From NCBI GenBank assembly GCA_944363805.1, contig CALVVH010000014.1:1-23532 (forward strand): 23,532 nucleotides of DNA, read 5' to 3'. A program made the translations under genes and the position numbers. The stretch's first letter is position 1. Each line of letters opens with the position of its first letter. The stretch is from an uncultured Bacilli bacterium (GTDB lineage: Bacteria; Bacillota_I; Bacilli_A; RF39; UBA660). Under the pieces are notes generated by a model that did not search any database, was not told the origin of the DNA, and saw nothing but the letters and a program-made list of their open reading frames with translations. Of the stretch, positions 1,945-18,992 are shown one piece after another.

Positions 1945-2027
1945 CTTTAATATTGTTCTATTTTAATCATAATTAATAAATTTATAGTATAATAATGTTG
2001 TAGTTTAATTTGAAGGGATGTAATTAT

Positions 2028-2756
2028 ATGATTAAAGTCGAATTAACAAAAAATTATACTGGCATTAATATATCTGGTGACTATGAAGATTTAGATTTTC
2101 TATATGATTCAATCTATTATTTTATAAAAGAAGAACCTAAAAGTTTAATTGAAGAATCTATGCAAGATCATATTTTTGGATTTTTATATGAGGTTAGACA
2201 TTGTTATCAAGGCGATAGAGATTTTAAATTTGTTGATAATGAACTTAGAGAAGAAGTTAGAGAATATCAAAAGATACCAAAAAAGGAGATCTCAAATAAC
2301 AATTTATATTATAGTTTTGACTATGTTTTAACTGATTTATTTACAGATATGGTATTAATAAAATATTTTATTATGAATATTCCAAAAACTGAAAAAAATG
2401 ATTATAATCCATATTTGAATAATGTTAAATTGTTTTATTCGCAAATTTTAAATTTAATGCAAGAAATTTTAACACCTACAAAGATGAAAAAATTAGAAAA
2501 AGGATTAATTGATACAATAATTTCAGATAAAATATTTTTTCCGCAATGGTTTGATGTTATAACATGCAATTACTTGAAACAAACTAAAGAAAAAAGGGTA
2601 AAAGAGTTATCTAAAACTTTAGATGCTATTTATAATTATAGTGATTATATAGATTACTCTGAAATGAAAATAGAAGTAGAAAAATATTGTAATGAAAATA
2701 ATTGTTTAATAACAAATGTAACAATGTGTGAATATCCTGATGAAATAGAATGGTAA
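2028..2756 (+). CDS. DUF6904-like protein of unknown function
   Basis: This 242-residue soluble protein has no membrane segment. Start ATG 2028 is preferred over an in-frame TTG at 2010 because AAGGGA (2013-2018) sits 9 bases before it. The opening KVELTKNYTGINISGDY, the RHCYQGDRD motif near residue 65 and the C-terminal YPDEIEW resemble my recollection of the DUF6904 family, found mostly in Firmicutes, which has no known biochemical role. It lies between the recombinase and the element's right junction, so it is cargo. A TATAAT at 1988-1993 could be its -10 box, but no good -35 is visible. The family assignment is from memory and should be treated as tentative. Confidence 0.6.
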   Translation: MIKVELTKNYTGINISGDYEDLDFLYDSIYYFIKEEPKSLIEESMQDHIFGFLYEVRHCYQGDRDFKFVDNELREEVREYQKIPKKEISNNNLYYSFDYVLTDLFTDMVLIKYFIMNIPKTEKNDYNPYLNNVKLFYSQILNLMQEILTPTKMKKLEKGLIDTIISDKIFFPQWFDVITCNYLKQTKEKRVKELSKTLDAIYNYSDYIDYSEMKIEVEKYCNENNCLITNVTMCEYPDEIEW

Positions 2757-2777
2757 TATGTAAATATTTTTAAAATA

Positions 2778-2810
2778 TCGACAATAAAAACGCTTTATAC
2801 TATGTATAAT
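2778..2810 (+). promoter_or_regulatory. possible promoter for the AlbA_2 gene
   Basis: TATAAT at 2805-2810 lies 21 bases after TCGACA (2778-2783), and TATACT lies at 2796-2801. Spacing is not ideal for either pair, so only the -10 element is suggestive. It sits just upstream of the ribosome binding site of the 2831 gene. Confidence 0.35.
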
Positions 2811-2830
2811 AAATATAAGGAGATGATTCG

Positions 2831-4333
2831 ATGACTGAAGCTGAAGTAATTGAGGCAATAAATTATGTAAGAAAATATAATACCGAAACAAATATGATTG
2901 AAGTTAAGACAGCATCAATGGATTTTCCTAAAAAATGTTATGATACTTTTTCAAGTTTTTCTAATAAATATGGTGGAATCATTATTTTTGGTATAAATGA
3001 AGAAAATGGCTTTAAAACTGAAGGCGTATATGATTTGAATGATTTGCAAAAGAAAATTTCTTCTTTATGTAGTGATTCTATGGAACCGGCAATTAGACCT
3101 GATATTTTACCTATGGAATTTGAGGGTAAAAATATATTGGCTGTTAAAATCGATGAAATTCTTCAAAATAAGAAACCTTGCTATTATATACCAAAAGGGT
3201 TAAATAAAGGTTCATATACAAGAGTTGGAGATAGAGATGAAGTAATGACTGATTATGAAATTTATGCACTCCAAAGTTATAATGATCATATTTTTGAAGA
3301 TACCAGACCTACAAAGAGAGCAAGTATTGATGATTTAAATCAAGAAGAATTAACAAAATACATCAATAAGTTAAAAGAAGAAAAACCAAATTTTGCTAAA
3401 AACGATTTTGATAAATGTTTAAAAATATGTGGTATTACGGATACTAATGATGAGAAAGTATATCCAACTTTAGCTGGTACGATGTTGTTTGGAGAATTTC
3501 CACAGACTTATTATCCTCAACTATTTGTTGCTTGTGTTGTAATTCCAGGTATCGAAATTGGAGATACAGGTGTTTTAGGAGAAAGATTTATTGATAATAA
3601 AAGAGTTGAAGGAACTATAGAAGAAATGATTACTGGTACTATGAACTTTTTGACGCGAAATATGAAAAATAGTGTAATAATTAATTCTCAAGGAAAAAGA
3701 ATTAATAGAACTGAGTATCCATTAGAGGCATTAAGAGAAGCTGTTGCTAATGCTTTAATTCATAGAGATTATAGTACACAAACTGAAAATGCATATGTAT
3801 CAGTTTATATGTATAATGATAGAATTGAAATTATAAATCCAGGTGCACTTTATGGTACTAATAAATTAGAAAAATTAGGAACAGCAACAACGATGGAATC
3901 AAGAAATCCAACTATTGTTAGAATTCTTGAAGAAAAAGGTGATGTAATTGAAAATCGTCATTCTGGAATTCCAACAATGATAAGAGAAATGAAAAAATAC
4001 GGATTACCTAAACCTGAATTTTATGAAGAAAGAGATAGCTTTAAAGTTATTTTTAGAAATAAAAATGTTGTTACTAATGAACAAAGTGATACACAAAGTG
4101 ATGCACAAAGTGATACACAAAAATCACAATTAGATATAGAAAAGAAAGTTCTTGACTTTTGTATAGAACCAAAGTCAGCACAAGAAATAAGAACATATTT
4201 AAATATTTCATCAAAAAGATATGTTGCGTACGAAATAATTCGTCCTTTAATTAATAGTGGAAAATTAGATTATACAAATAAAAATAGTATTAATGCTAGA
4301 AATCAAAAATATTTAACTATAAAAAAAGATTAA
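2831..4333 (+). CDS. AlbA_2 / HATPase_c_4 regulator-like protein
   Basis: This 500-residue protein has the layout of putative transcriptional regulators with a Schlafen AlbA_2 domain. Residues about 15-135 form AlbA_2 (MIEVKTA, then FSNKYGGIIIFGI). A RecG-like HATPase_c_4 region at about 295-400 carries EAVANALIHRDY. A hydrophilic linker (about 418-432) is built of SDTQ repeats. The C-terminal 70 residues look like a winged helix. Start ATG 2831 follows AAGGAG. Members are common on mobile elements and are thought to bind nucleic acid; no reaction is established for this type. It is the last gene before the element's right boundary, on the same strand as the recombinase. A regulatory or defence role is only inferred. 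Confidence 0.88.
   Translation: MTEAEVIEAINYVRKYNTETNMIEVKTASMDFPKKCYDTFSSFSNKYGGIIIFGINEENGFKTEGVYDLNDLQKKISSLCSDSMEPAIRPDILPMEFEGKNILAVKIDEILQNKKPCYYIPKGLNKGSYTRVGDRDEVMTDYEIYALQSYNDHIFEDTRPTKRASIDDLNQEELTKYINKLKEEKPNFAKNDFDKCLKICGITDTNDEKVYPTLAGTMLFGEFPQTYYPQLFVACVVIPGIEIGDTGVLGERFIDNKRVEGTIEEMITGTMNFLTRNMKNSVIINSQGKRINRTEYPLEALREAVANALIHRDYSTQTENAYVSVYMYNDRIEIINPGALYGTNKLEKLGTATTMESRNPTIVRILEEKGDVIENRHSGIPTMIREMKKYGLPKPEFYEERDSFKVIFRNKNVVTNEQSDTQSDAQSDTQKSQLDIEKKVLDFCIEPKSAQEIRTYLNISSKRYVAYEIIRPLINSGKLDYTNKNSINARNQKYLTIKKD
4081..4116 (+). repeat. three 12-bp tandem repeats inside the AlbA_2 gene
   Basis: Three in-frame copies of a 12-base unit (ACAAAGTGATAC, with one A-to-G change) run from 4081 to 4116, with a partial fourth copy after them. 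They encode a repeated Ser-Asp-Thr/Ala-Gln linker. Because the unit is a multiple of three, copy changes would alter linker length without shifting frame. Confidence 0.85.
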
Positions 4334-4371
4334 ATATAAATTTTTTTAAAATAAGTTGTAGTGGAGAGTAG

Positions 4372-6783: not shown

Positions 6784-6857
6784 AGGGGCGTGGTATAATG
6801 GTAGCATAGGAGTCTCCAAAACTTTTGATGGGAGTTCGATTCTCTCCGCCCCTGCCA
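6784..6857 (+). tRNA. tRNA-Trp (CCA anticodon)
   Basis: A full cloverleaf is visible. The acceptor stem AGGGGCG pairs with CGCCCCT. The anticodon loop is CTCCAAA with anticodon CCA, on a stem with two G-U pairs, and the T loop is TTCGATT. The 3' end is discriminator G followed by an encoded CCA. It closely resembles Bacillus tRNA-Trp. No strong terminator follows before the secretion operon. Anticodon CCA reads UGG only. Confidence 0.96.
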
Positions 6858-6923: not shown

Positions 6924-7376
6924 ATGACGTTTGTAAGAAATACCTTATTTATATGTTGTATAGCGCTTTTATCTTTTTTTTGTTATATGAATGAACCATT
7001 AGCTAGTAGTGGAAATGTTGAAACTATTAGTATTGTGGAGAGTGATAGATTATTTGCTGGCCAAAGTGATGGAGTTTGCCAAAGTGTTAAGTCTTGTGAT
7101 AACTTATTTGGAGATCCTGATGATGTTGACTGTACTGCTTATTGGATGCAATGGATTTTAAATATAGCTAAATATGTAGCCATTGCAGCATTATTAGTAC
7201 TTAGCACAGTAGATTTTATTAAAGCTTTGGCTTCTAATGATAAAGATGCTTTAAAGAAGGCGAGTATGACTACTGCAAAACGTTTTATTTTTGTAGTAAT
7301 TTTGTTCTTCTTACCGATTATTGTCGATTTCATAATGCGTTTATTTGGAGCTTATGGAACTTGTGGGATTGGTTAG
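6924..7376 (+). CDS. VirB2-like pilin subunit of the type IV secretion operon
   Basis: This 150-residue protein has a signal peptide (about 1-28, hydrophobic core CCIALLSFFC, likely cut near LASS), then an extracytoplasmic segment with Cys52, Cys58 and Cys70, and two hydrophobic helices (about 77-101 and 120-141) joined by a short basic loop, ending GTCGIG with Cys147. Signal peptide plus two helices and a short polar loop is the VirB2/T4SS-pilin pattern; it resembles small pilin-like proteins of Gram-positive and mycoplasma conjugation modules. ATG 6924 follows GGAAGTG; an upstream in-frame TTG (6897) is less likely because the signal peptide fits ATG. It is the first gene of the operon and 67 bases after tRNA-Trp. 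The role is inferred from topology and position. Confidence 0.75.
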   Translation: MTFVRNTLFICCIALLSFFCYMNEPLASSGNVETISIVESDRLFAGQSDGVCQSVKSCDNLFGDPDDVDCTAYWMQWILNIAKYVAIAALLVLSTVDFIKALASNDKDALKKASMTTAKRFIFVVILFFLPIIVDFIMRLFGAYGTCGIG

Positions 7377-7386
7377 GTGAGTTAGA

Positions 7387-9591
7387 GTGGGAATAGTATT
7401 TAGTGCATTGTTGTTAATTGATGGTGCTATTTTTAATTTAATTGATTATCTTTATGATATATTTGATTTTTTAGCAAGAATAAATATTTTTGGTCAAGAT
7501 GATTACAATGTAATTGTTAGCCGAATATATGTTATTTTGGGAATTTTTATGCTCTTTGTTTTGGCTTATTCGTTACTTAAAGCTGTAATAAATCCTGATG
7601 ATTTTGCCAAAGGAGAAAGTTCTTTTCCAAATTTAATAAAAAATGTAGTTGTTTCATTGGTTATAATAATATTGTTACCTACAGTTTTCACTGTGGCTTT
7701 TAATATTCAAAATACTATATTGAATAACGATACTATTCCAAGACTGATTTTGGATGTTGAGAGTTTTGACGAGGTAGATGCTGATGCAGGACGAAAAATG
7801 GCTTTCTATACTTTTAGTGCCTTTTTCTATCCAAGTGCTAGTTATTGTACTGATGGAAATAGTGAATCTATGACTGAACAAGAAGAAAAAGAATGTAAAG
7901 AACGGATTAAAACATCGAATGTTACATGGTTTATACCAACTACTTGGGGTAATAGAGATTTCACTTTAGCGGTTGTTGATGAACAAGTCATGAATGGGGC
8001 TTCATTTACAAATTATAGCCAATTTAGTGATGAGGTGGCTAATAATCAAATAAATTACACGCCATTGGTTTCGACGGTAGCTGGAGTATTTTTGCTTTAT
8101 GTTTTACTAAATTTCTGCTTTGATTTAGCGGTACGTGTTGTAAAATTAGCTTTCTATCAAATAATTGCTCCGATACCAGTAATATGCCGTATTTTACCTG
8201 GTGGAAATATGAAGGATGTTTTTTCAAAGTGGGTAAAACAAGTAATTAGTATTTTTGTAGAGGTGTTTATAAGAATTGCTATAATGTATTTAGGGGTATT
8301 TATAATTACTTTAATTATGGATAATTTTGATAATATTCAAGGATTAAATCAATTATTATTTTCTCAAAAAATGATCGTTAGAGCTTTATTAATAATGGGA
8401 GTTATTATATTTATAAGACAAGCTCCAAAATTACTTAGCGAATTGTTAAATCTAGATACTGGTGGTATGAAACTTGGCATTATGGATAAACTTGCTATGG
8501 GCGGTGGCCTTATTGCTGGAGCAGCTGGTGCTGGACTTCTTACCGGTGGTGTTCGAAACCTTGTTGGAGGAGTTAGAAACACTGCTACTAATTTCAAAAG
8601 TGCAACTGGCGTTAGAGGTAAGCTTGGTGCAATAGCTGGTGGTGTTTTAGGTACTGGCGCATCAACAATAGCTGGCGCAGGTTCTGCAATGGTACGTTCT
8701 GGAGTTGGTGCTCGTGGTGCTAAGAATTTTAAGGATGCATCAGCAGCTACAAGTAAAGGACTTGCTGGAGCAGCAGTAGCTAAAACAAAACGCGCTGCAT
8801 ATAAAGCTAGTCATAGAAATGTTAGAGTTGCTGGACATAATTTTGATGTTGGAAAAATCCCAGTTATTGGTGGAGCTTTAGGAGTAGGTGCTGGACATAT
8901 CGGAGACGCATTCTATGGTGTTGGACAATGGGCTGGTTTAACTGGAGGCTTGGAACGATTACAAGCTGAACAAGCTGTTTATCAAGAAGGTATGGGATTT
9001 AAGAAAGATTTATTTGATTTGGTTTCAGATGACAAAAGTGTAATGGCTTATCAAGGTTTGATGAAAGCAGCACAAGATAGAGAGTTGTCCGATTATACTA
9101 ATTTCTATAAATTAAATGCTAATGGTGAAGTTTATGATAAACGTAATGGAGCAATTTTAAAGGATAAAGATGGGAATGTATTTAAAAATGTAGAAGCAGC
9201 TGCAATATTTACTAAAACGCAAGAAATTGATAAGTATGATACTGCCATTAAATTAGCATCAATGCGTGCTATTCATGAAAAATTACAAAGTGGTGACGGA
9301 AGATTTACAGCACAATTTGAAAAATTTGAAACGTATAAGAAGCAACATGCTGATAATGAATTGGTTAATTCTTTGATAATGAGGGATATAGACCAATCAC
9401 AATTGGATTTAATTAATCAAGCCTTAAGTACAAATGATTTTAATGATATTGATACTGCTAAGAAAACTCTTGAAAGTACCATTGGTGGAATTCTATATAA
9501 TGATAAACAATTTAAGATTAAGAATGGTGATGTAACTACAGAAATTGCTAAATTAGTTCAAGAAAAGAAGCAAAAAGAAGGAAATAAATAA
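7387..9591 (+). CDS. VirB6/TrbL-like polytopic channel protein
   Basis: This 734-residue inner-membrane protein has hydrophobic segments at about 3-22, 44-67, 84-106, 227-250, 288-315 and 329-347, with an extracytoplasmic region at about 110-220. Next comes a Gly/Ala-rich stretch (about 372-505) and a polar C-terminal region (about 505-734). VirB6-type proteins form part of the translocation channel; the conserved AFYQIIAPIPVI region fits the TrbL/VirB6 superfamily of Gram-positive systems. The start is GTG 7387 with AGGTG 7 bases upstream, only 10 bases after the pilin stop. The long soluble C-terminus is larger than in classical VirB6 and might contact the ATPases. Confidence 0.85.
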   Translation: MGIVFSALLLIDGAIFNLIDYLYDIFDFLARINIFGQDDYNVIVSRIYVILGIFMLFVLAYSLLKAVINPDDFAKGESSFPNLIKNVVVSLVIIILLPTVFTVAFNIQNTILNNDTIPRLILDVESFDEVDADAGRKMAFYTFSAFFYPSASYCTDGNSESMTEQEEKECKERIKTSNVTWFIPTTWGNRDFTLAVVDEQVMNGASFTNYSQFSDEVANNQINYTPLVSTVAGVFLLYVLLNFCFDLAVRVVKLAFYQIIAPIPVICRILPGGNMKDVFSKWVKQVISIFVEVFIRIAIMYLGVFIITLIMDNFDNIQGLNQLLFSQKMIVRALLIMGVIIFIRQAPKLLSELLNLDTGGMKLGIMDKLAMGGGLIAGAAGAGLLTGGVRNLVGGVRNTATNFKSATGVRGKLGAIAGGVLGTGASTIAGAGSAMVRSGVGARGAKNFKDASAATSKGLAGAAVAKTKRAAYKASHRNVRVAGHNFDVGKIPVIGGALGVGAGHIGDAFYGVGQWAGLTGGLERLQAEQAVYQEGMGFKKDLFDLVSDDKSVMAYQGLMKAAQDRELSDYTNFYKLNANGEVYDKRNGAILKDKDGNVFKNVEAAAIFTKTQEIDKYDTAIKLASMRAIHEKLQSGDGRFTAQFEKFETYKKQHADNELVNSLIMRDIDQSQLDLINQALSTNDFNDIDTAKKTLESTIGGILYNDKQFKIKNGDVTTEIAKLVQEKKQKEGNK

Positions 9592-9609
9592 AAGAAAGGA
9601 TAAAAGGGA

Positions 9610-9930
9610 ATGAATAACAATTATTTGATACCGGCGAATTCCAAAAAATCACAATTGATATTAGGGTTCTTTACTCCAGTTGATTTGATATTATTTGGTT
9701 CTGGATGTGGGCTTACAATATTACTTTTGATGTTAGTTAGAAATGCTGATCTAGCTAAGATGATAATAATATTGTTGCCGGCGCTAGTTACAGGATTCTT
9801 GGTAACTCCGGTAATGTATTACCATAATGTATTGCAATTTATAATAAATGTTGTCAGTTTTATCTTTAATACGAGAAGGTATTATTGGAGAGGTTGGTGT
9901 GTGAAATATGACTCAGAAAATAAACAATAA
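9610..9930 (+). CDS. PrgI-family (VirB3-like) membrane protein
   Basis: This 106-residue protein has an N-terminal polar segment (IPANSKKSQLILGFFTPVD) followed by two close transmembrane helices (about 25-45 and 50-70), then FIFNTRRYYWRGWCVKYD. This is the typical PrgI/VirB3 plan: small, two helices, next to virB4. VirB3-type proteins dock the VirB4 ATPase at the membrane. ATG 9610 follows AAAGGA. Its end overlaps the next gene by 23 bases, which suggests translational coupling. Confidence 0.88.
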   Translation: MNNNYLIPANSKKSQLILGFFTPVDLILFGSGCGLTILLLMLVRNADLAKMIIILLPALVTGFLVTPVMYYHNVLQFIINVVSFIFNTRRYYWRGWCVKYDSENKQ

Positions 9931-10462
9931 TGTAAGTTATAGTGAAGATTGGCTTCCTATTAAACAAATAATGAATGGAATGATTCAGTTAGATGATGGT
10001 ACTTATGTAACTGGCGTGAAAGTATTTCCTAAAAATATTTTCATAATGGATGTGGGAAGTCAAAATAATACGATATATAATTTGCGAAACTTTTACAATA
10101 GTATAGATTTTGAGTTTTGGTTATTAATTGCTGATCGACCTGTAGATATTGATGTTTATGTTTCACAATTACAACTTATGTATAATAATGCACAAAACAA
10201 TGCTATTAAGAAACTTATTATGCAAGATATAAATAAAGCTAATCTATTTACTAGCGTCGAATATAATGTAGTTGATACGGAATATTATATTTTATTTAAG
10301 GAAAAGAGAATGGAACTAGTACAAAAGAAGTTGCACAATTTGATAAGTGGTCTAGCTAATGCTGGGTTGCAATCACAACAAGCATCTAATAATGACTTGC
10401 GAATGCTTTTGGATAACTTCTTAAATGGCGGCGAACAAACTAATTTTGGGGCGGTGATGTAG
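9908..10462 (+). CDS. VirB4 N-terminal (TraC-like) domain as a separate ORF
   Basis: This 184-residue soluble protein (WLPIKQIMNGMIQLDDGTYV, then a long helical segment near 140-184) matches the N-terminal non-ATPase domain of VirB4/TraC proteins, which contacts the membrane partner PrgI/VirB3. It overlaps the prgI-like gene by 23 bases. It ends with TAG at 10460-10462, and the next base starts ATG of the ATPase part in the same frame, so the two ORFs would form one normal-length VirB4 (about 780 residues) without that codon. They may be made as two coupled proteins, or TAG may sometimes be read through. Confidence 0.82.
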   Translation: MTQKINNNVSYSEDWLPIKQIMNGMIQLDDGTYVTGVKVFPKNIFIMDVGSQNNTIYNLRNFYNSIDFEFWLLIADRPVDIDVYVSQLQLMYNNAQNNAIKKLIMQDINKANLFTSVEYNVVDTEYYILFKEKRMELVQKKLHNLISGLANAGLQSQQASNNDLRMLLDNFLNGGEQTNFGAVM

Positions 10463-12247
10463 ATGAAACTTAAAAGTGAAATTGCTCCTAAAGGAATGGA
10501 GTTTAAACCAACGGAATTTGTAATCGGAGGCAAATATGCTACGATTATGACTGTAATTTCTTTTCCAAGGAACATTGCTCCAGGATTTTTGTCAGATATG
10601 ACTAATATCAATGGTGTAAAGATTGCGATAAAGCATATTCCAATTGAATTTTCTGTTTTACAAAAAATGCTTAATAAAGAAATAGCGGATTTAAAGGTAA
10701 GATATCAAAGTGAAAAAGACCAAACTATGCAAGAAAGAATAAGACAAGACTATGAAAGTTTGGAACAATTTATTCAAATGCTTGCAGCTACTCAAGCAAG
10801 AATATTTGATTTTCAAATGCATTTGATGATTACAGCAAATAATAAGGAAGAATTGGAACTTAGAAAGATTCAAGTAAGAAGTTATTTAGATGCTTTGGGA
10901 ATGCGGGCAGTATCTTTGATGTTTGAACAAGAAAAAGCATTGAAGTCAATTTTACCGATATTTCCCCCACAAGATATTGAAAATAGAATTGGAACACCAA
11001 TTCCATCTGTTACGATTGCGGCGATGTATCCATTTGTATTTGACAGTATAAAAGATCCGGGAACAGCAACCCTTCTTGGGGTAGATATTTCTGGTGGGGT
11101 TATCTTATTTAATCAATTTTTATATCAAATTAGAAAAGAAAATAATCGGAATAATGCTAATTTAATTTTGCTTGGTATGTCAGGTTCTGGAAAATCGACA
11201 GCTGCCAAAGTTTTGTTGCGAGCTCACATTAGAAATGGTTATAAGATTGTTTGTGTCGATCCAGAAGGTGAACTTGAAGAAATGACAATTTCCCTTGGTG
11301 GAGACTTCCTAGATCTTGGTAAAGGTGGAGACTTTGGAATGATTAATCCACTAGAAATTGTAATTGATTCTGATGAAGAAGAAATTGCTCAAGGACTAGG
11401 TTATACTGTATTAACGAGAACACTACAACAAGTTAAGGCCTTTATGAAGTATTATTCTCCCAGTATTGAAGAAGATGTACTTACAATGTTTAGTGAAGTA
11501 TTACAAGATACATATAAGAGATATAAAATAGATTATGATACAGATTTTACTAAACTAACAAGTGCTGATTATCCAACATTTGATGATGTTTATGCAACTA
11601 TTAAAGGTCGTCTTTTATCGATGACAGATGCCACTCATGAACGGGATGTAATGGAAAGATTGGAACTAAAGGTTAGACCATTAGTTAAAGAACTTAGATA
11701 TTACTTTACAGGACATACAACCTTGAAAATTGAAAGTGATTTTATAGTATTTAACATAAAAGAATTAATGAATAGTGATGAAAACATTAAAAATGCATTA
11801 TTTTTCAATATTTTGAAATATGCATGGGGATTATGTTTGGATAAAGATGTCAACACAGTAATGATGGTAGATGAAGCTCATGTATTATTAGCTGGCCATA
11901 ATGAACTTGGTGCGGAATTTTTAGCTCAAATTCAAAGACGGAGCAGAAAATATAATACGGGAACAATTATTATTACGCAACAACCAACTGACTTTGCAGC
12001 TCCAAATATCATTACCCATGGTAAAGCAATATTCGATAATGCTTCATATTACTTAATTATGGGGTTACGGAAGCAAGCAGTTGATGATTTGGCTAAGTTA
12101 ATTGATTTGAATGATGCCGAAAAAGAATCGATTAAATATTATAATCAAGGTGATGCACTCTTTGTTTGTGGTAATAAACGTTTGCGTATTCAAGTTGTTA
12201 TTACCCAAGAAGAACTAGATTCGTTTGGATCAGGTGGGGGATTTTAG
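10463..12247 (+). CDS. VirB4-like conjugal transfer ATPase
   Basis: This 594-residue motor ATPase powers assembly and substrate transport at the cytoplasmic face of the type IV machine. Walker A is GMSGSGKST (Lys244, Ser245); Walker B is MMVDEAH (Asp470, Glu471). QRRSRKYNTG and IIITQQPTDF follow, as in VirB4/CD1110-type ATPases. The N-terminal 180 residues (IAPKGMEF onward) match the middle VirB4 region. ATG 10463 directly follows the previous stop, with GGCGGTG at 10450-10456 as a plausible ribosome binding site inside the previous gene, so reinitiation or coupling is likely. Confidence 0.95.
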   Translation: MKLKSEIAPKGMEFKPTEFVIGGKYATIMTVISFPRNIAPGFLSDMTNINGVKIAIKHIPIEFSVLQKMLNKEIADLKVRYQSEKDQTMQERIRQDYESLEQFIQMLAATQARIFDFQMHLMITANNKEELELRKIQVRSYLDALGMRAVSLMFEQEKALKSILPIFPPQDIENRIGTPIPSVTIAAMYPFVFDSIKDPGTATLLGVDISGGVILFNQFLYQIRKENNRNNANLILLGMSGSGKSTAAKVLLRAHIRNGYKIVCVDPEGELEEMTISLGGDFLDLGKGGDFGMINPLEIVIDSDEEEIAQGLGYTVLTRTLQQVKAFMKYYSPSIEEDVLTMFSEVLQDTYKRYKIDYDTDFTKLTSADYPTFDDVYATIKGRLLSMTDATHERDVMERLELKVRPLVKELRYYFTGHTTLKIESDFIVFNIKELMNSDENIKNALFFNILKYAWGLCLDKDVNTVMMVDEAHVLLAGHNELGAEFLAQIQRRSRKYNTGTIIITQQPTDFAAPNIITHGKAIFDNASYYLIMGLRKQAVDDLAKLIDLNDAEKESIKYYNQGDALFVCGNKRLRIQVVITQEELDSFGSGGGF

Positions 12248-12261
12248 TTAAGGTGGTTTAA

Positions 12262-14820
12262 TTGAATAGAAAAAGAGGAGTAAATAACGAAAATAAATTA
12301 CTTTATGATCCTAATCAAAGGCAACAAAGACGATTAGGTGCTTTTTCTATGCAAGAAATTGAAGAACCAGAGGAAGAAACTGTTGAAGAAAATGAACAAG
12401 ATGAAAGTATAGAAAGTGAAGAACAAGAAACATTACAAAATAATGGACAACAAGTAAATGAAGAAATTCCTCAAAATAATAATGTTGTAAAAGAGTCTTT
12501 AGCACAAGCTAAAAAAGTGGCTGGAAATACAGCGAAAACAGCTGTCAAGAATGTGGCTAAGAAAGCGGGGAGTGCTGTTGCTAAAGTAGCGGGTCAAATT
12601 GCAATGAAGTTACTTGCATTCATAATTGCTAATCCTTGGGTTTTAGCTATTCTTGGCATAGCTGTATTAATTATTATATTTATAGTTATCCTTGTAGGAG
12701 GTTCTTCTGAAAGCACTGGTGAAGGATATTATGATAAGCAATGTAACTTTAATGAGTCAGTTGTTACTCTTACAACATGTAATACTACAGAAACAACGGA
12801 AATGCCTTTAGATAAATATGTTATTGGGACTACTTATTCTCTAGTTAAAGATGGGACATATTCTAATGAAACAATTAAAGCTTTAATGGTAGTAATTAAA
12901 ACTAATGCTTTAAGTTATGGGGGATATAATAGTTCAGATAAAGATTTAACTTTAGATGATTGTTCAATACCATTTGTTAGTGTAGCTGATGGAGATAGTG
13001 ATTTATATGATAGTTTATCAAATATTTATAATGAAATAGAAAATAATATATATGTTGCTTCTTCTTATCAAGAAGTTATTTCATCTATGTCAGCTGCTGA
13101 TGCTTTACCAATTAATGACAGTATAATTAGTCAGATGGAAACTTTGGCAAGTGAAAGTAATCAATATAATACTATTCTAGATAATATTTACAATAATTCA
13201 GAAAATATAGTAAATAGTGCTGCTGGAACCATCTATGTGGGAGATTCAAGGACACAAGGAATGGTACTAGCAGGAGCAATTGATGCCGTTAATGCTGTTT
13301 ATGGTGTTGGCTATGGTTATAATTGGTTTATCGGTAATGGTTCATTTAATGCTAACAATACTAATGCAACAAGTGGTGCTATTGCAGCAGTAAATTCTAA
13401 AATTGGAAGTGGTTCATACAATATAGTTATTTGGTTGGGAGTAAATGATTATACTAATTTTAGTGCAGAGGATTATTATAATAAGTATTATGAATTAGCA
13501 ACTGGGGATTGGAAAAATCAAAATATTTATATTGTAGCTGTAGGTCCAGTTGATGATAATTTGGCACAAAATGTTGATAATGCAGGTATTAATAACTTTA
13601 ATAATGAAATGGCTAATTTAATTAGGAATACTAATGTTAATAATCTTCATTATATTAATTTGAATTATAGTATTCAAAGTTATGATAGTATGGGTGTTCA
13701 TTATAGCAATGCTGATTATGTAGAAATTCATGAACAAATTAGTAATAATATTACAACAGGAAGAAATGTTGATTTGGCGATTTATGATTTATCAACTTAT
13801 TGTACTTTTTATACGGTTACAGAAAATGATGCTTATTGGTGGCCAATAGGTAGTACGAATGCAACTAATGGTAATGTTTATGGCGGAAATCCTAGTACTA
13901 CTAATGTTTCTTCACCTTATGGTCCTAGAACTATTAATGGTATTTATAGTTTTCATAAAGGGGTAGATATAGCTGCCACTTGTAATCAAAATGTTATTAT
14001 TGCGACTAAATCTGGTACTGTTACGAAAGTAAATGATACTTGTCCAAGCTATGGTAGTTATCAAAATGACTGTGGCGGTGGTTATGGTAATTATGTTATG
14101 ATTGACCATGGTGATGGTACTTCGAGTGTTTATGCCCATATGTATTCTGGTTCAGTAACTGTTAATGTTGGAGATACTGTTCAACAAGGGGAAAAAGTTG
14201 GAATGATGGGTTCTAGTGGTAGTTCTACTGGTTGTCATTTACACTTTGAAATTAGAATAAATGATTCACAAGTAGATCCTTTAGAATATATTAGTGCTGA
14301 TAATCCAAGACCAGTTGTAAGAAATATATCGATAGATGCTGGTTCTGAGGGAGGACAACAAGCAGTGTGTCAAGCACTTTTAGATAGTGGTTTTTCAGAA
14401 AATGCTACGATAGGTATAATGGTAAATGTTAATGCAGAAAGTGGCTTTAGAACTGATGCTGTTGAATATTCAAGTGGGTATACAATCGATAATATTTATA
14501 GTGCACCAGCTGATGTAGCTGCAGGGTTTGGATTGTTTCAATGGAGCTTTGGCAGAAGAATTAATGTTATAAATTATGCTCGAAATAATGGAATGGATCC
14601 AACATCATTGCAAGCACAATTAGAGTATTTTGTTCAAGAACTTAATACATCTTATCCGGTAACTTTAAAATATGTAACTGGTAATTATTCGGCATATGAT
14701 ATAGCTACTAATTTTTGTTTAGATTTTGAAAGACCAGCAAATAAAAATACTACCTGTCCAAATAGAGCTACAAATTATGTTGATATGTTTACTAGTTATG
14801 TTAAAAATGGTTGTAGTTAA
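12262..14820 (+). CDS. membrane-anchored multi-enzyme wall remodeller (VirB1-like)
   Basis: This 852-residue protein should open peptidoglycan for the secretion channel. The start is TTG 12262, with AGGTGG 5 bases before it. Order of parts: an acidic cytoplasmic N-terminus with a Lys/Ala-rich helix (about 75-113), one transmembrane helix (about 117-145), then outside the cell a weak SpoIID/amidase-enhancer-like region (about 165-310, MPLDKYVIGT and KALMVVIKTNA), and an SGNH/GDSL hydrolase domain (about 322-490; Ser329 in GDSR, Asn395 in GVND, His480 in GVHYS). Next are an M23 endopeptidase (about 550-680; zinc ligands His565, Asp569 and His661, catalytic His626 and His659) and a C-terminal phage-tail-lysozyme-like domain (about 688-850; Glu726 in NAESGF). 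M23 and lysozyme are confident, SGNH good, SpoIID tentative. The domain set could cut glycan and peptide and remove an ester decoration. Confidence 0.88.
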   Translation: MNRKRGVNNENKLLYDPNQRQQRRLGAFSMQEIEEPEEETVEENEQDESIESEEQETLQNNGQQVNEEIPQNNNVVKESLAQAKKVAGNTAKTAVKNVAKKAGSAVAKVAGQIAMKLLAFIIANPWVLAILGIAVLIIIFIVILVGGSSESTGEGYYDKQCNFNESVVTLTTCNTTETTEMPLDKYVIGTTYSLVKDGTYSNETIKALMVVIKTNALSYGGYNSSDKDLTLDDCSIPFVSVADGDSDLYDSLSNIYNEIENNIYVASSYQEVISSMSAADALPINDSIISQMETLASESNQYNTILDNIYNNSENIVNSAAGTIYVGDSRTQGMVLAGAIDAVNAVYGVGYGYNWFIGNGSFNANNTNATSGAIAAVNSKIGSGSYNIVIWLGVNDYTNFSAEDYYNKYYELATGDWKNQNIYIVAVGPVDDNLAQNVDNAGINNFNNEMANLIRNTNVNNLHYINLNYSIQSYDSMGVHYSNADYVEIHEQISNNITTGRNVDLAIYDLSTYCTFYTVTENDAYWWPIGSTNATNGNVYGGNPSTTNVSSPYGPRTINGIYSFHKGVDIAATCNQNVIIATKSGTVTKVNDTCPSYGSYQNDCGGGYGNYVMIDHGDGTSSVYAHMYSGSVTVNVGDTVQQGEKVGMMGSSGSSTGCHLHFEIRINDSQVDPLEYISADNPRPVVRNISIDAGSEGGQQAVCQALLDSGFSENATIGIMVNVNAESGFRTDAVEYSSGYTIDNIYSAPADVAAGFGLFQWSFGRRINVINYARNNGMDPTSLQAQLEYFVQELNTSYPVTLKYVTGNYSAYDIATNFCLDFERPANKNTTCPNRATNYVDMFTSYVKNGCS

Positions 14821-14834
14821 GGGGAAGATTTGTG

Positions 14835-15734
14835 ATGAATGATAAGAAATATTTAAGAATAGTCATTGTAATTATTTTAATTTTAGCAGTAGTTTCAGTT
14901 GGTTTAATTTGGTTATTGGGCAATAATACTAATGATAATATAGATAATATAGATGATACATCTTCGATTGATAATCCAACATTACGAGTGTTGCAAAATG
15001 CGGCTAATGAGTTTTTTACAGTTCAAAGAATAGTCAATAATTATTATGAAATTATAAAAAGTAATAATGCCCAAGAAATATATAACGTTTTGGATAAAGA
15101 TTATGTAATAAGTAATGCAATTGATGAAAATAATGTTTTAAACTTTTTTACAAATGATTATGAAGATACATCTTATATTGCGAAAGAAATACAATACATT
15201 AGAGGAGAAAATACCACGTATTATTTTGTTAATGGATATTTATTAAATCAAAATATTGTAACAGAAGAAATAGAATATGATGCAAATGTAAATTACTTAG
15301 TGATTACAGATACAGAAAAAAATTTATATGCTATACATCCTTTAGAAAGTAATGAATTTAATAATTTTGTAAGTAGTTATGATTTTAAAAATACATTAGA
15401 ATTAAATGAAGATAATTCATATAGTAATATAAATATTATAGAAACTAATAAACTTACCACTTATATAAATGAATTTTTAAGTTTAATGTTTTTAGATACT
15501 GAAAGGGCTTATAATATGCTCGATGATGCTACTAAAAGTTATTTTGGTTCGTATGATAGTTTTAGTGATAGTTTGTTAGATACTTATGATAGAATATCTC
15601 CGGTTATATTTTCGTATTCACAAGAAACTGGTGATGATTATATTTTATATAGTGTTATAGATAATAATGATAATCGAATTAGAATATATGAGTATAATAC
15701 TATGAATTATGTTTTAGGTTTTAATTTTGATTAA
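14835..15734 (+). CDS. VirB8/TcpC-like bitopic protein
   Basis: This 299-residue protein has a short basic cytoplasmic N-terminus, one transmembrane helix (about 6-28), an Asn/Asp-rich linker, and two similar extracytoplasmic modules (about 55-175 and 205-299). Each begins with a helix pair ending in a Leu-Asp motif (EIYNVLDKDYV, then RAYNMLDDATK). Two NTF2-like modules after one helix is the layout of TcpC from the Clostridium perfringens plasmid pCW3 and of VirB8 scaffolds. ATG 14835 is chosen over the adjacent GTG 14832, with GGGGAAG upstream. Primary sequence similarity is weak, so the call depends on topology, the internal repeat and position between the wall enzyme and virD4. Confidence 0.72.
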   Translation: MNDKKYLRIVIVIILILAVVSVGLIWLLGNNTNDNIDNIDDTSSIDNPTLRVLQNAANEFFTVQRIVNNYYEIIKSNNAQEIYNVLDKDYVISNAIDENNVLNFFTNDYEDTSYIAKEIQYIRGENTTYYFVNGYLLNQNIVTEEIEYDANVNYLVITDTEKNLYAIHPLESNEFNNFVSSYDFKNTLELNEDNSYSNINIIETNKLTTYINEFLSLMFLDTERAYNMLDDATKSYFGSYDSFSDSLLDTYDRISPVIFSYSQETGDDYILYSVIDNNDNRIRIYEYNTMNYVLGFNFD

Positions 15735-15763
15735 AATTTTTCCAAATATTATGTATTTTGTTG

Positions 15764-15769
15764 TATAAT
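15764..15769 (+). promoter_or_regulatory. possible internal -10 box before virD4-like gene
   Basis: TATAAT lies in the 58-base gap between the VirB8-like and VirD4-like genes, the largest gap in the operon. No good -35 is visible. It might allow separate expression of the coupling protein. Confidence 0.35.
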
Positions 15770-15792
15770 AATTAAAGAAAGGAAGAAGACTT

Positions 15793-18039
15793 GTGAAATT
15801 TAAAGTTGAACCCAAAGATTTTTTGTTATTTTGTATTTATTGTGGTTTGTTGTTATACCTTTGTGCAATAGCGGTTTTGAATATTCATTCATTAGCTCAA
15901 GAAGGTGCTTTTTATGGTCTCCTTCCATTTAAGGCTTTTACGGGAGCTTATTTACCTATTACTTTGTTACTTTTTATTGGGGCTTTGGTGGCGATATTTT
16001 CAAGTGTTTCTAGTTATATATTTAAAAAAGAAAAAGGAAGTCACGGAATAGGCTTAATATTTAAAGATAAATCTAGTGATGGTTATTCAAAGTGGGCGAA
16101 AGAAAAAGATATTAAAGGAGAAGAAAATGTAGTTAAAGTAAATCCTTTAAGTGATACTTTAGATGCAGCAGGTATTCCATTAATTAATAACGGAAAAGAA
16201 ATTTGGGTTGATAATGGGGAATATCATAATTTAGTAATTGGGTCTACTGGTAGTGGTAAAACACAAACGATAGTTAAGCCAATGGTTAATTTGCTAGCTA
16301 AAAAAGGCGAAAGTATGATTATTACTGACCCCAAAGGTGAAATATATAAATATAGTGCTTCTTATTTGAAAGAAAGAGGTTACAGAATTATCGTTTTGAA
16401 TTTCCGGGAACCTCAAAGAGGTAATTCTTGGAATCCTTTGACACTTCCATATAAGTATTATACTGGGGGTAATCAAGATAAATCTATTGAATTGTTAAAC
16501 GACGTTGCTTTAAATATTTTGTATGATCCAAGCAATAAATCGGAATCGGATTTCTGGGAAAAGTCAGCTGCTGACTACTTTTCAGGACTTGCTTTAGGTT
16601 TATTTGAAGATGCTAAAGAAAGAGAAGTTAATTTAAATAGTATTAACTACATGAGTGCAGTTGGGGAAGAAAGATATGCAACGAGTAATTATATCAAAGA
16701 ATACTTTGGGCTTAAAGGTGAAAAATCAACTCCTTATATCTTTGCCACAAGTACAATCAATGCTCCGAATGATACTAAGGGAGGATTACTTGCAACATTT
16801 AGACAAAAGATAAGAAACTTCTCAACTGGGGAAGCTTTAAGTGAAATGCTTTCGTATAGTGACTTTAATATGCGAGATATCGGTAACGGAAAGACAGCAG
16901 TATTCATGATTATTCATGATGAAAAGAAGACGTATCATAGTTTGATGACGATATTTATTAAACAATGTTATGAAACATTAATCGATGTTGCGCAAGAAAA
17001 TGGGGGAAAACTTCCTTATAGAACAAATTTTATTCTAGATGAATTTGCAAATATGCCACCACTTAAAGATGTTGATGCCATGGTATCAGCAGCCAGAAGC
17101 CGGGATATTAGATTTACTTTTATTATTCAAAACTTTGCTCAACTTAATGATGTATATGGGGATAATGTTGCTGAAATTATTAAAGGTAATTGTGGTAACT
17201 TAGTTTACTTAATTAGTACCGAAATGAAAGCTTTGGAAGAAATTTCGAAGATGTGTGGGGAAGTAAAAGTAACCGATGATAAAGATAAGAATGCCACGAG
17301 ACCACTTATTACAGTAACAGATTTACAAAAAATGAAGTTATTTGAAGCAATTATTAAAAGACTTAGAACAGATCCTTTTAGAACAAAACTAGAGCCAGAC
17401 TTTAAGATGGAATGGGGAATTGAGCGAAAAGAAGAACCATATCCGTCACGAATTAAACAAGAAGTAGAAATATTTGATTTAAAAAAATTTGTTACAGAAG
17501 AAAAAAGTAAGAGTATGGCTAACATGCGAGGTAATAATTTAAATAATCCTAATCCTTTTAGACCAATTAATACTGATTTTGGTATGGGAAATTCAATGAA
17601 TACACCAAGAAATAATTTTAATTCTTTAGATATCGATAGTATGCTTAAAGACTTAGATGAGAAATTTAAAGAATTGGATAGACAAGAAGCAGAAAAGAAA
17701 AAGAAAAGTAATAGTTTACTAGATGTTGGGGCAGATATTGAACTTCCTACGAAAAAGAATGATTTTAGTGATAATAAGTTTTTTAATTCAAATCCTTTTA
17801 TGAATAATATACCAAATAAAAAAGAAGTTGATAATGACATTGGTTCTCTAGATAGTTTTATGAAAAGTGTTGATTCAAAGGTAGTTGATATGCCTAAACT
17901 TAAGGAAGAAAAACCTAAAGTGGAAGTGTTTAAAGAAGAAAAGCCGAAGATCAATGTCGATGCTGATAGTAAAGTACTAGGAGATAATATTATTACTGAT
18001 GATGAATTCTTTGATGATTTTTTTGGAGATGATGAATAG
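15793..18039 (+). CDS. VirD4/TraG-type coupling ATPase
   Basis: This 748-residue coupling protein normally recruits substrate (relaxase-DNA or effector protein) to the channel. Two N-terminal transmembrane helices (about 10-31 and 54-77) precede the ATPase. Walker A is GSTGSGKT (150-157, Lys156); MIITDPKGEIY follows; Walker B is ILDEFANMPP (Asp416, Glu417); then SRDIRFTFIIQNFAQL. After about residue 560 comes a 180-residue low-complexity tail rich in Asn, Phe, Pro, Lys and Asp/Glu, ending in an acidic EFFDDFFGDDE. The start is GTG 15793 after AAAGGAAGAAG. It is the last gene of the operon. No relaxase is near, so the tail could be a site for protein substrates; that is inference. Confidence 0.95.
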   Translation: MKFKVEPKDFLLFCIYCGLLLYLCAIAVLNIHSLAQEGAFYGLLPFKAFTGAYLPITLLLFIGALVAIFSSVSSYIFKKEKGSHGIGLIFKDKSSDGYSKWAKEKDIKGEENVVKVNPLSDTLDAAGIPLINNGKEIWVDNGEYHNLVIGSTGSGKTQTIVKPMVNLLAKKGESMIITDPKGEIYKYSASYLKERGYRIIVLNFREPQRGNSWNPLTLPYKYYTGGNQDKSIELLNDVALNILYDPSNKSESDFWEKSAADYFSGLALGLFEDAKEREVNLNSINYMSAVGEERYATSNYIKEYFGLKGEKSTPYIFATSTINAPNDTKGGLLATFRQKIRNFSTGEALSEMLSYSDFNMRDIGNGKTAVFMIIHDEKKTYHSLMTIFIKQCYETLIDVAQENGGKLPYRTNFILDEFANMPPLKDVDAMVSAARSRDIRFTFIIQNFAQLNDVYGDNVAEIIKGNCGNLVYLISTEMKALEEISKMCGEVKVTDDKDKNATRPLITVTDLQKMKLFEAIIKRLRTDPFRTKLEPDFKMEWGIERKEEPYPSRIKQEVEIFDLKKFVTEEKSKSMANMRGNNLNNPNPFRPINTDFGMGNSMNTPRNNFNSLDIDSMLKDLDEKFKELDRQEAEKKKKSNSLLDVGADIELPTKKNDFSDNKFFNSNPFMNNIPNKKEVDNDIGSLDSFMKSVDSKVVDMPKLKEEKPKVEVFKEEKPKINVDADSKVLGDNIITDDEFFDDFFGDDE

Positions 18040-18062
18040 TTGTTTATCATCTTCTTTTTTAT
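18025..18062 (+). terminator. terminator of the secretion operon
   Basis: The stem 18025-18033 / 18046-18054 (GGAGATGAT with ATCATCTTC, one G-U pair) is followed by TTTTTT. It begins inside the last codons of the VirD4-like gene. Confidence 0.85.
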
Positions 18063-18092
18063 TTTAGTGACATAAATTATAGTGTGATAATT

Positions 18093-18347
18093 ATGAAGAA
18101 AATAATGTATAGTGAGTATAATCCTAATATGGGTGTTTTAATAGATGTACAACATCCTTTAGATTATAAGGAACATCCTACTCCAAATAGTAAAAATATG
18201 TATGCGGATAAATTACTTATGAATTATAAAGCAGTACTAGATAAGAATCAAAAATACTACATTATATGTAATAAAGGTACTCTAAGTAAAAGAGTGGTAG
18301 CAATGCTTGAATACTTAGGATATGATGTAACCCAGGTTATTAAGTAA
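18093..18347 (+). CDS. short rhodanese-like protein
   Basis: This 84-residue protein resembles a trimmed single rhodanese domain: VLIDVQHPLDY near the N-terminus, and Cys59 in IICNKGTLSKRVV, the place of the sulfur-carrying Cys, followed by MLEYLGYDV. Such domains move sulfane sulfur or act as redox/phosphatase folds. Standard rhodanese domains have about 100 residues, so some helices are short or absent. The start is uncertain among GTG 18084, ATG 18093 and ATG 18105; none has a strong ribosome binding site, and GATAAT just upstream of 18093 could mean a near-leaderless transcript. It lies just after the operon terminator. Confidence 0.7.
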   Translation: MKKIMYSEYNPNMGVLIDVQHPLDYKEHPTPNSKNMYADKLLMNYKAVLDKNQKYYIICNKGTLSKRVVAMLEYLGYDVTQVIK

Positions 18348-18385
18348 ATTACATAATTGTAATAGTAATTTCTAGTGTTTTGTAC

Positions 18386-18391
18386 TATAAT
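18386..18391 (+). promoter_or_regulatory. possible -10 box before the VTT-family gene
   Basis: TATAAT stands 17 bases before ATG 18408 and 38 bases after the rhodanese-like stop. The -35 is poor. It argues against the upstream in-frame GTG at 18375 as the start. Confidence 0.4.
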
Positions 18392-18407
18392 AACAATAGT
18401 GGTTTTT

Positions 18408-18992
18408 ATGGGAGAAGTGTTTAGTAGTTTTTATAATTTTATTATGGATACGATTGATGCAATGGGAGTTTATGGGCCTTTGTTAGGTTCTCTTTTTATC
18501 GTGCTTGAATCAATTATTCCGCCACTTCCATTATTTGTTTTTATAACTATTAATTTTATTGCTTTTGGTTATGTAATAGGTTTTATTATATCTTGGGTAT
18601 GTACGATAATTGGGTGTATTATATCTTATTATTTGGTAAAAAAGTTTTTACGTAATTTTGTGGTAAGAAAGATAAAAAATATTGATTTATTGACTAGATG
18701 TATGAATTATATTGAAAATTTATCTTTAACAAAGATAACTGTTATTTTATCTATTCCATTTACTCCAGCTTTTATGATGAATATTGCTGCTGGTTTAGTC
18801 AATATGAATTTTAAAAAGTTTTTTATTGCTATTTTGATTAGCAAAGTATTTTTGGTTTATTTCTGGGGATTTGTGGGTACTAGTTTAGTGGAAAGTTTTC
18901 AACATCCAGAAAGTTTAATAACTGTTGTTGTTATGATGGTAATAGCTTATGGAATTAGTTTTTTAATAAAAAAAGTATTTAAAATTAATTAA
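18408..18992 (+). CDS. VTT/DedA (SNARE-associated) family membrane protein
   Basis: This 194-residue polytopic protein has the DedA/TVP38 layout: VYGPLLGSLFIVLESIIPPL near the start with re-entrant-loop Pro residues, the membrane segments of FGYVIGFIISW, IPFTPAFMMNIAAGLVNM in the middle, and two C-terminal helices. Family members flip or transport lipids, including undecaprenyl phosphate and phosphatidylethanolamine, across the membrane. ATG 18408 is preferred, with AGTGG 5 bases upstream. Its stop overlaps that of the converging minus-strand gene. Confidence 0.88.
   Translation: MGEVFSSFYNFIMDTIDAMGVYGPLLGSLFIVLESIIPPLPLFVFITINFIAFGYVIGFIISWVCTIIGCIISYYLVKKFLRNFVVRKIKNIDLLTRCMNYIENLSLTKITVILSIPFTPAFMMNIAAGLVNMNFKKFFIAILISKVFLVYFWGFVGTSLVESFQHPESLITVVVMMVIAYGISFLIKKVFKIN

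Follow-up and report, generated by a model that had tools for sequence, protein, structure and literature searches.

The locus described here raises the question of what a type IV secretion system (T4SS) with no relaxase of its own does in a Bacilli genome, and whether it resides there or is in transit. Nearly all known functions of Gram-positive T4SSs are DNA transfer, and effector secretion by such systems is an open question for which Streptococcus suis 89K is so far the instance, as passages of PMC12857230 have it. The window, i.e. the whole 23,532-nucleotide stretch of DNA that was analysed, had been read in a preliminary description as containing a complete minimal T4SS operon that is a resident device.

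Composition of the operon

Positions 6924-18039 hold VirB2-, VirB6-, VirB3-, VirB4-, VirB1-, VirB8- and VirD4-like genes on one strand, with no relaxase among them (Table 1). The preliminary description had named these core parts correctly but overlooked that VirB4 is encoded by two adjacent genes; its observations that a relaxase is absent (Pfam detected none in the ORFs annotated in the window) and that the operon has its own terminator (a T-tract hairpin at the virD4 end) were borne out. Of the components that define MPF-FATA systems, the VirB4 ATPase and the VirD4-type coupling protein are both recognised in the window by Pfam/NCBIfam, and VirB3, VirB6 and VirB1 are likewise present, the matches for VirB3 and VirB6 lying below curated cut-offs and being backed by gene order and synteny. 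A Pfam-based call of VirB8 was dropped, with nothing over the cut-off, and the assignment of the VirB8/TcpC-like protein follows its fold instead; a convincing VirB8 row was not found for it with Foldseek. A PHROG scan was uninformative on the T4SS core. By motif reading, the VirB1-like protein also includes an SGNH-like stretch. Across the order, synteny frequently places the rhodanese-like gene 3' of virD4 and the VTT/DedA-like gene 3' of the rhodanese gene.

Table 1. Coordinates of features in the window and the evidence for their assignment.
Feature	Position	Strand	Evidence or remark
Separate element	289..4370	+	serine recombinase (289-1944), DUF6904, AlbA/Schlafen-like gene
tRNA-Trp	6784..6857	+	left neighbour of operon
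VirB2-like	6924..7376	+	signal peptide and two hydrophobic helices, from sequence; curated HMM support weak
VirB6/TrbL-like polytopic membrane protein	7387..9591	+	NF045848 2.4e-14, NF045889 3.7e-10, both below cut-off
VirB3/PrgI/TcpE-like	9610..9930	+	TcpE 3.7e-4; NF045975 positions 2-96, E 0.004
VirB4 N-terminal domain, separate gene (TrsD-like)	9908..10462	+	NF045975 96-276, 1.3e-12
VirB4 ATPase half	10463..12247	+	NF045975 294-891, 6e-102 (below equivalog cut-off); P-loop_TraG over cut-off
VirB1-like membrane-anchored wall hydrolase	12262..14820	+	M23 peptidase, phage-tail lysozyme, weak SpoIID-like part
VirB8/TcpC-like	14832..15734	+	one N-terminal helix, two compact alpha-beta (NTF2-like) domains; by fold
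VirD4/T4CP coupling protein	15793..18039	+	PF02534, NF045973, over cut-off
Terminator-like hairpin with T tract	18025..18054	+	overlaps virD4 end
Small rhodanese-like protein	18084..18347	+	PF00581 1.4e-6
VTT/DedA-like membrane protein	18375..18992	+	PF09335 9.4e-19

The division of VirB4 into a TrsD-like N-terminus followed by the ATPase is conserved in relatives, which rules out a pseudogene. For the N-terminal piece (pLDDT 63), the top 14 PDB fold matches are all R388 TrwK/VirB4 entries (best E 1.1e-3), and it shares 21.6% identity (1.3e-11) with the equivalent ORF of plasmid pEYLC1.2. A separate VirB4 N-terminal protein is a feature of the pGO1 subclass, and the name TrsD-like follows the description given in part of PMC12102498.

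Distribution and inheritance across the order

Matches to VirB4 were obtained in 262 of 288 genomes of the order (258 at E<1e-200) and to VirD4 in 270, with rpoB as a control matched in 272; these counts are per assembly, genome completeness being unstated, and order, family and class membership is as assigned by the genome collection used. The name of the order we take to be RF39; in NCBI taxonomy, one relative, Candidatus Caccenecus, is listed under Bacilli incertae sedis. Both VirB4 and VirD4 are missing in 15 of the 288 genomes, all 15 of which match rpoB, and in G115 and G127 the VirB4 match is merely of the ICE-like sort. Real losses of the system are thus probable, and the order probably does not depend on it strictly. 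In a survey of 198 genomes of the class, VirB4 identity was 64-95% in 22 genomes of the order and at most 35% in every other match, and a relaxase was present in four of the seven stretches read around VirB4 matches outside the order.

For phylogenetic comparison, 30 genomes were hand-picked (i.e. non-randomly) across the identity range, of which 26 entered the tree; of the four dropped, three gave no match to rpoB and the fourth had it only in part. For G001 the rpoB copy on contig C10 was taken because the second, on C68, resembles a contaminant. The VirB4 and rpoB trees have 19 of 23 splits in common (label permutation: mean 0.25, maximum 3), and their patristic distances correlate with r 0.925 at a VirB4/RpoB distance ratio of 0.62, i.e. 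VirB4 evolves at about 0.6 times the rate of RpoB. That the VirB4 tree should follow the species tree had been proposed beforehand as a check on residence, and this congruence, an occurrence across the order that nearly equals that of rpoB and the relaxase-free loci together uphold a resident device over an element in transit. The patchy, horizontal distribution of an ICE is not what the window's system displays.

The tRNA-Trp site and the nearby recombinase element

The preliminary description further proposed comparing synteny around tRNA-Trp, and took empty sites in relatives as grounds for rejecting residence. Among 30 loci with the Hyd2 gene, 21 also have tRNA-Trp, and 20 of these 21 lack a T4SS gene within about 1.5 kb. 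Empty sites thus exist, but VirB4 lies elsewhere in 15 of the 20 genomes (the VirB4 search took in 17 of them), in G036 some 10 kb from the site on the same contig; of two others, G056 has VirD4 alone and G115 only an ICE-like VirB4. The presence of the operon is therefore ancient, its position at tRNA-Trp being peculiar to the window's clade.

The absence of an attachment repeat was confirmed as regards the tRNA 3' end, of which no repeat was found, and tRNA-Trp was rejected as an attachment site. The claim that there is no integrase needs amending, since the window does contain a serine recombinase; this belongs to a separable element outside the T4SS and was discarded as the operon's integrase, leaving the operon with no integrase of its own and no repeat of the tRNA 3' end. 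The right end of the element interrupts a LysM wall amidase gene (remnant about 4375-5466). Accordingly, the reading as a conjugative element at tRNA-Trp, whether decayed or newly integrated, to which the nearby recombinase and the operon-free Hyd2-tRNA-Trp sites (one, in G115, in a genome without resident VirB4) might point, is very improbable given vertical inheritance throughout the order, intact frames, the missing tRNA repeat and the separability of the recombinase element. Carriage by phages or viruses was also rejected: 81 pattern matches in viral_contigs, from only two peptide patterns, included no relative. There was no DNA match to phages or plasmids.

Relaxases and mobilisable elements

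The 110 loci read around the operon, with 1756 ORFs in all, yielded no relaxase homologue (11 genomes being in both locus sets), and neither did 1.04 Mb of the closest relative, G205; in this, too, the operon departs from an ICE. The 110 loci combine the 30 order-wide genomes with L001-L080, which were chosen by VirB4 match from at least 353 confirmed; as 11 of the 30 genomes recur in L001-L080, the 110-locus set and the 75-locus set used below hold up to 11 doubles. Some relaxase occurs in 27 of 50 genomes, none of four families occurs in the other 23, and PF03389 relaxases were found in 0 of 50.

It is conceivable that the machine mainly moves DNA, as a conjugation port provided by the host and served in trans by relaxases of mobilisable elements with serine recombinase and MOBV, or by release of chromosomal DNA. 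MOBV is present in 22 of the 50 genomes, 20 of them with a single VirB4 match at E<=1e-30, although VirB4 families too divergent from the query could escape this count. A serine recombinase adjoins MOBV in all five neighbourhoods read (G128, G008, G249, G011 and G001; annotated by Pfam on two stretches and by similarity on a third), none of which contains anything that matches VirB4 or VirD4 of the window. The genome of G128, with 1.26 Mb of about 1.3 Mb in one contig, gave a single match to each of VirB4 and MOBV. Such elements may hitchhike on the resident T4SS, which might account for the spread, within this group, of small MOBV elements that lack their own T4SS. Nevertheless, the machine is strongly constrained even though 23 of 50 genomes have none of the four relaxase families, and we regard DNA transfer as its main role as unlikely.

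Pilus locus and variable components

A Tad-type locus with a TadZ-like gene lies directly upstream on the same strand in 20 of the 80 loci (80 of at least 353 confirmed) and in 11 of the 30 order-wide loci, the latter from both sides of the deepest splits in the tree; this is a minority of the sampled loci, many of which are truncated where a contig or stretch stops. None was seen in the window, and in G205 the locus is on another contig, terminating in two VirB2-like genes. Its Tad character is given by HMM matches to a TadA/VirB11-type ATPase (T2SSE 1.6e-28, over cut-off; TIGR03819 2.8e-26 and TIGR02788 7e-32, below) and to a CpaB-like protein (SAF over cut-off; TIGR03177 about 5e-8, below the NCBIfam cut-off), whilst the labels TadB/C/E/F/Z and Flp derive from gene order, lengths and N-termini, with no Pfam/NCBIfam match of weight. 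The linkage is probably ancestral, pilus and T4SS having once formed one gene supercluster.

The VirB2-like gene of the window has family members that stand in arrays in relatives: a profile census counted at least two copies in 51 of 75 loci (up to 11 loci counted twice), and the VirB2-like proteins reach about 600 aa. With a Tad-type pilus locus and extra VirB2-like genes linked in many relatives, the label "complete minimal" proved inexact. In the VirB1 position, wall hydrolases are exchangeable modules whose composition varies among 38 proteins including the window's; the scan omitted four of 41 loci, three (L032, L058, L061) because the first ORF after VirB4 was not VirB1-like by length or place, and L069 as a presumed double of L068, which it equals in size. 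A VirB8 BLAST match was obtained in 16 of the 80 loci (80 of at least 353 confirmed); in the others the protein in that place is LppM-like or has no match. VirD4 was reached within six ORFs of VirB4 in 41 of the same 80. The long VirB2-like proteins, the VirB2 arrays and the linkage to a pilus locus would suit a device for adhesion or pilus assembly with no translocated substrate, but VirD4 and the wall hydrolases are retained, which makes this improbable.

The VirD4 C-terminal tail

VirD4 ends in the tail DDEFFDDFFGDDE (17998-18036), whose motif FFDDFF is present in 52 of 53 distinct proteins. Of five VirD4s from mobile relatives, the four with readable ends lack it; the fifth (L226) is cut by the end of the stretch. 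A search of 50 genomes with the tail's DNA pattern gave 63 matches, and the reversed control gave 40, a sizeable background; a match lies at the 3' end of virD4 in at least 36 of the 50. An import machine for DNA or nutrients (ComB/Ced-like) could be envisaged in auxotrophic small-genome cells: assemblies are small (about 0.6-1.9 Mb), and T4SS-related import is known elsewhere (a passage of PMC12102498). We give this a low probability, in that the conserved tail and a VirD4 about as widespread as rpoB suggest coupling to export.

Proposed function and relation to known systems

We favour, with a probability of roughly 0.6, a chromosomal, vertically inherited and relaxase-free translocation machine of the monoderm (MPF-FATA/trs) type that would act on contact. 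Tad/Flp and VirB2-like fibres would touch a neighbouring cell and the VirB1-position hydrolase would open the wall locally; VirB6, VirB3 and VirB8 with the two-piece VirB4 would form the energised channel, and VirD4 would recruit a cytosolic substrate and feed it outward, an adaptor probably docking on its conserved acidic-aromatic tail. As no relaxase is linked, the normal substrate is probably protein or other non-conjugal cargo and not the system's own DNA; some relaxase does occur in 27 of 50 genomes, so that DNA might also pass through the machine. A machine usually borne by mobile elements is here inherited in almost all sampled members of a small-genome gut group, which offers a second natural lineage in which to pursue effector secretion by Gram-positive T4SSs, with testable parts in the VirD4 tail, the two-piece VirB4, the linked pilus locus and the swappable wall hydrolases.

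A bolder picture, tentative and rather doubtful as a whole, is that the order lives by close or near-obligate bacterial contact, its Tad pilus and T4SS exchanging molecules with a partner or prey, the tail docking a lineage-specific adaptor, the VirB4 motor being more constrained than RpoB and mobilisable elements parasitising the port; this would be a second strategy of the Patescibacteria type in an unrelated lineage.

Systems of the pGO1/trs subclass of MPF-FATA are conjugative and have a relaxase. They too place TrsD beside VirB4 but lack a VirB6 homologue (portions of PMC12102498), whereas a VirB6-like gene is present here. On published description, the window's T4SS is best read as most like that of Patescibacteria (CPR). 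According to parts of PMC12102498 and PMC12857230, the latter is likewise chromosomal, widespread in a small-genome lineage and mostly relaxase-free, with TrsD apart from VirB4 and with VirB2 arrays; in Southlakia epibionticum, peptidase and lysozyme homologues lie just 3' of virB4 (cf. the VirB1 position here) and a type IV pilus is also essential. The saccharibacterial T4SS was the first T4SS for which a role essential to survival was described (within PMC12857230). The relaxase-free locus, spread through the lineage and VirB2 arrays recur here, but the host is a Bacilli order and not CPR, the pilus genes are Tad-like and often clustered with the T4SS, the VirD4 tail is conserved, and VirD4 is often near virB4, as it rarely is in Patescibacteria (same passages). 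The 89K system of S. suis, likened by description, is also Gram-positive but lies on a pathogenicity island, and the evidence for protein secretion is its own (excerpts of PMC12857230).

Among mobile systems, Mollicutes/Bacilli ICEs (Mbov_0397 VirB4, MobL relaxase) share the VirB4 and VirB6 families by NCBIfam, but their VirB4 is mostly unsplit (frames of about 790-880 aa) and a relaxase is linked where read. The Exiguobacterium acetylicum plasmid pEYLC1.2 (NZ_CP082335.1) differs in being plasmid-borne, in its VirB4 (about 30% identity), in the absence of the FFDDFF tail and in a relaxase annotated as MobP3, despite the plasmid's typing as non-mobilizable in PLSDB; it likewise has a split VirB4, a pilin, TrbL and VirD4, and it also carries CpaB/CpaF-type pilus genes.

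Inheritance in the order RF39

Matches to VirB4 were found in 262 of 288 genomes of the order RF39 (258 at E<1e-200) and to VirD4 in 270, against 272 for the rpoB control; both proteins are absent from 15 genomes and, since all 15 have an rpoB match, some of these absences probably reflect genuine loss. Among 198 genomes drawn from across the class, the 22 matching members of the order show 64-95% identity, and all matches outside those 22 lie at or below 35%. The preliminary description had looked to agreement of the VirB4/VirD4 tree with the species tree as one mark of a resident system. Trees of VirB4 and rpoB built for 26 genomes have 19 of 23 splits in common (permutation mean 0.25, maximum 3), with a correlation of tree distances of 0.925 and VirB4 distances about 0.62 of those for RpoB. 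No relative was confirmed among viral contigs, searched with two peptide patterns, and phage and plasmid records gave no match to VirB4 DNA. VirB4 is vertically inherited under strong constraint, and that the type IV secretion system (T4SS) is resident in the order we regard as close to certain.

Operon organisation and location

In the window, whose DNA is AT-rich and Bacilli-like, the T4SS genes run on one strand in the order VirB2-like, VirB6-like, VirB3-like, VirB4, VirB1-like, VirB8-like and VirD4, between tRNA-Trp and mscS/dapF, with rhodanese-like and VTT genes 3' of virD4, a pair often found there in relatives. The preliminary description had the operon lacking both a relaxase and an attachment repeat; in the window no relaxase was identified among the ORFs scanned by Pfam, and a search for a second tRNA 3' end found none. 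It would have recognised a resident operon partly by recurrence at tRNA-Trp. Upstream of the operon, tRNA-Trp is present in 8 of 80 loci picked by VirB4 match (from at least 353 confirmed). Of 30 loci marked by the Hyd2 gene and drawn from across the family, 21 have tRNA-Trp, and 20 of these lack T4SS genes over about 1.5 kb around it. Fifteen of these 20 genomes have VirB4 elsewhere, which argues that the present address is clade-specific and the machine old; three lay outside the VirB4/VirD4 search, one (G056) has VirD4 only and one (G115) only an ICE-like VirB4.

VirB4 is encoded by two genes, a small ORF and an ATPase half, which match positions 96-276 and 294-891, respectively, of one VirB4 model. 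The N-terminal piece is a separate ORF in all 30 genomes chosen across the order, and the ATPase half measures 593-596 aa in all of the best 120 homologues listed. The small protein has a predicted structure of modest confidence (pLDDT 63), for which the first 14 PDB fold matches are all R388 TrwK/VirB4 entries (best E 1.1e-3). The split as such has precedents: according to PMC12102498, both the pGO1 subclass and Patescibacteria have a separate N-terminal piece, TrsD. On plasmid pEYLC1.2, too, VirB4 is split, with an annotated MobP3 relaxase next to it. One in-frame stop lies in or near the matched region of the resident ATPase genes of two genomes, possibly reflecting decay or assembly error.

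Coordinates of features in the window and in related loci
Feature	Sequence	Position	Remark
Serine-recombinase element	window	289-4370	amidase remnant 4375-5466
AlbA/Schlafen + HATPase_c_4	window	2831-4333	within the element
tRNA-Trp	window	6784-6857	left neighbour of operon
VirB4 N-terminal piece	window	9908-10462	ends at TAG
VirB4 ATPase half	window	10463-12247	begins at once, same frame
VirB4 with in-frame stop	G249:C52	11541-13121
VirB4 with in-frame stop	G298:C2	21751-23523
TadE-like/M15 gene	L290	2604-4148	genome G205
Lipoprotein-like gene	L018	13936-14631	VirB8 position
Lipoprotein-like gene	L066	12920-13636	VirB8 position
Serine recombinase + MOBV	L217	5542-9144
Serine recombinase + MOBV	L220	4059-7756
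Serine recombinase + MOBV	L221	4671-8242
Serine recombinase + MOBV	L222	4299-7743
Serine recombinase + MOBV	L224	1075-4563

Accessory components and proposed function

At least two VirB2-like genes are present in 51 of the 75 loci with enough upstream sequence (up to 11 of them doubles), one in 19 and none in five. Wall-hydrolase modules at the VirB1 position vary among 38 proteins (M23 in 15, Phage_lysozyme2 in 13, C39-like in 7, SpoIID in 6, Phage_lysozyme and NlpC/P60 in 5 each, CHAP in 4). Upstream of the operon and in the same orientation, a Tad-type pilus locus is present in 20 of the 80 VirB4-picked loci; in an order-wide set the count is 11 of 30, and the genomes that have it fall on either side of the deepest splits of the 26-genome tree. 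The window has none, and its closest relative, G205 (VirB4 97% identical), has the locus on a different contig, with two VirB2-like genes at its end. For the TadA-type ATPase the best-scoring model is VirB11, with a score short of that model's cut-off. CpaF-type pilus genes also stand beside the T4SS of the split-VirB4 plasmids of Exiguobacterium and Mycoplasmatota zrk4. After a variable linker, 52 of 53 distinct VirD4 proteins end in [FY][FY]DDFF, a tail absent from four VirD4s of mobile relatives; a DNA pattern for it is matched in 47 of 50 genomes (63 hits vs 40 for a reversed control), at the virD4 end in at least 36 of the 50. Partner-recruiting tails are known for DotL and TrwB (PMC12857230).

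We propose that the resident T4SS may carry out contact-dependent translocation of protein or other non-conjugal cargo, a full statement to which we assign a probability of about 0.6. Export is suggested by the fact that VirD4 has been kept, with its fixed tail, and cell contact by the wall hydrolases, VirB2 arrays and pilus locus; the lack of a linked relaxase speaks against self-transfer. Among systems in the literature, the T4SS of Patescibacteria comes nearest by its description. No description of the present system was found in open-licence literature on RF39 or Tenericutes with type IV secretion, partly represented by titles, and no mention of conjugation, VirD4, pilus or type IV in the available part of PMC7301438, on RF39/RFN20 genomes.

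Some relatives, L018 and L066 among them, have a lipoprotein-like gene at the VirB8 position in place of the NTF2-like protein; that of L018 matches an LppM domain, short of the model's cut-off. In G205 an M15 D-Ala-D-Ala peptidase domain, together with a weak match to SH3, extends the TadE-like gene, which would, judged from sequence, encode a pseudopilin-hydrolase fusion.

Relaxases and mobile elements

Twelve relaxase queries found no match in 1756 ORFs around the resident operon (110 loci, up to 11 of them doubles) or in 1.04 Mb of G205. Of 50 genomes with the system, 27 have at least one of four relaxase families (PF01076 in 22, PF03432 in 7, PF18555 in 4, PF03389 in none) and 23 have none. 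In G011 and G022, MobL is found at a distance of 2-4 kb from another VirB4, which is unsplit. MOBV genes adjoin a large serine recombinase in all five neighbourhoods read, stretches in which window VirB4 and VirD4 find no match. The main rival to contact-dependent translocation, that MOBV elements use the T4SS as a port for DNA, seems to us rather unlikely; the two are compatible, and both may be true. Outside the order, four of seven stretches read from relatives hold a relaxase (L118 by annotation; MobL by Pfam in L226, L228 and L230), and reading of L117, L227 and L229, without a family scan, identified none.

The recurring serine recombinase and MOBV relaxase pairs, in some cases joined by a third gene for roughly 90 aa, are apparently minimal mobilisable elements. 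Serine-recombinase genes lie at a LysM amidase gene by the T4SS/tRNA-Trp region in the window and in L005, L007, L008, L183, L184 and L192, and the amidase gene is intact in L001-L003, a pattern that suggests an integration hotspot inside its coding sequence. The AlbA/Schlafen + HATPase_c_4 protein of the window element belongs to a PHROG 'DNA helicase' family and is possibly defence or regulatory cargo.
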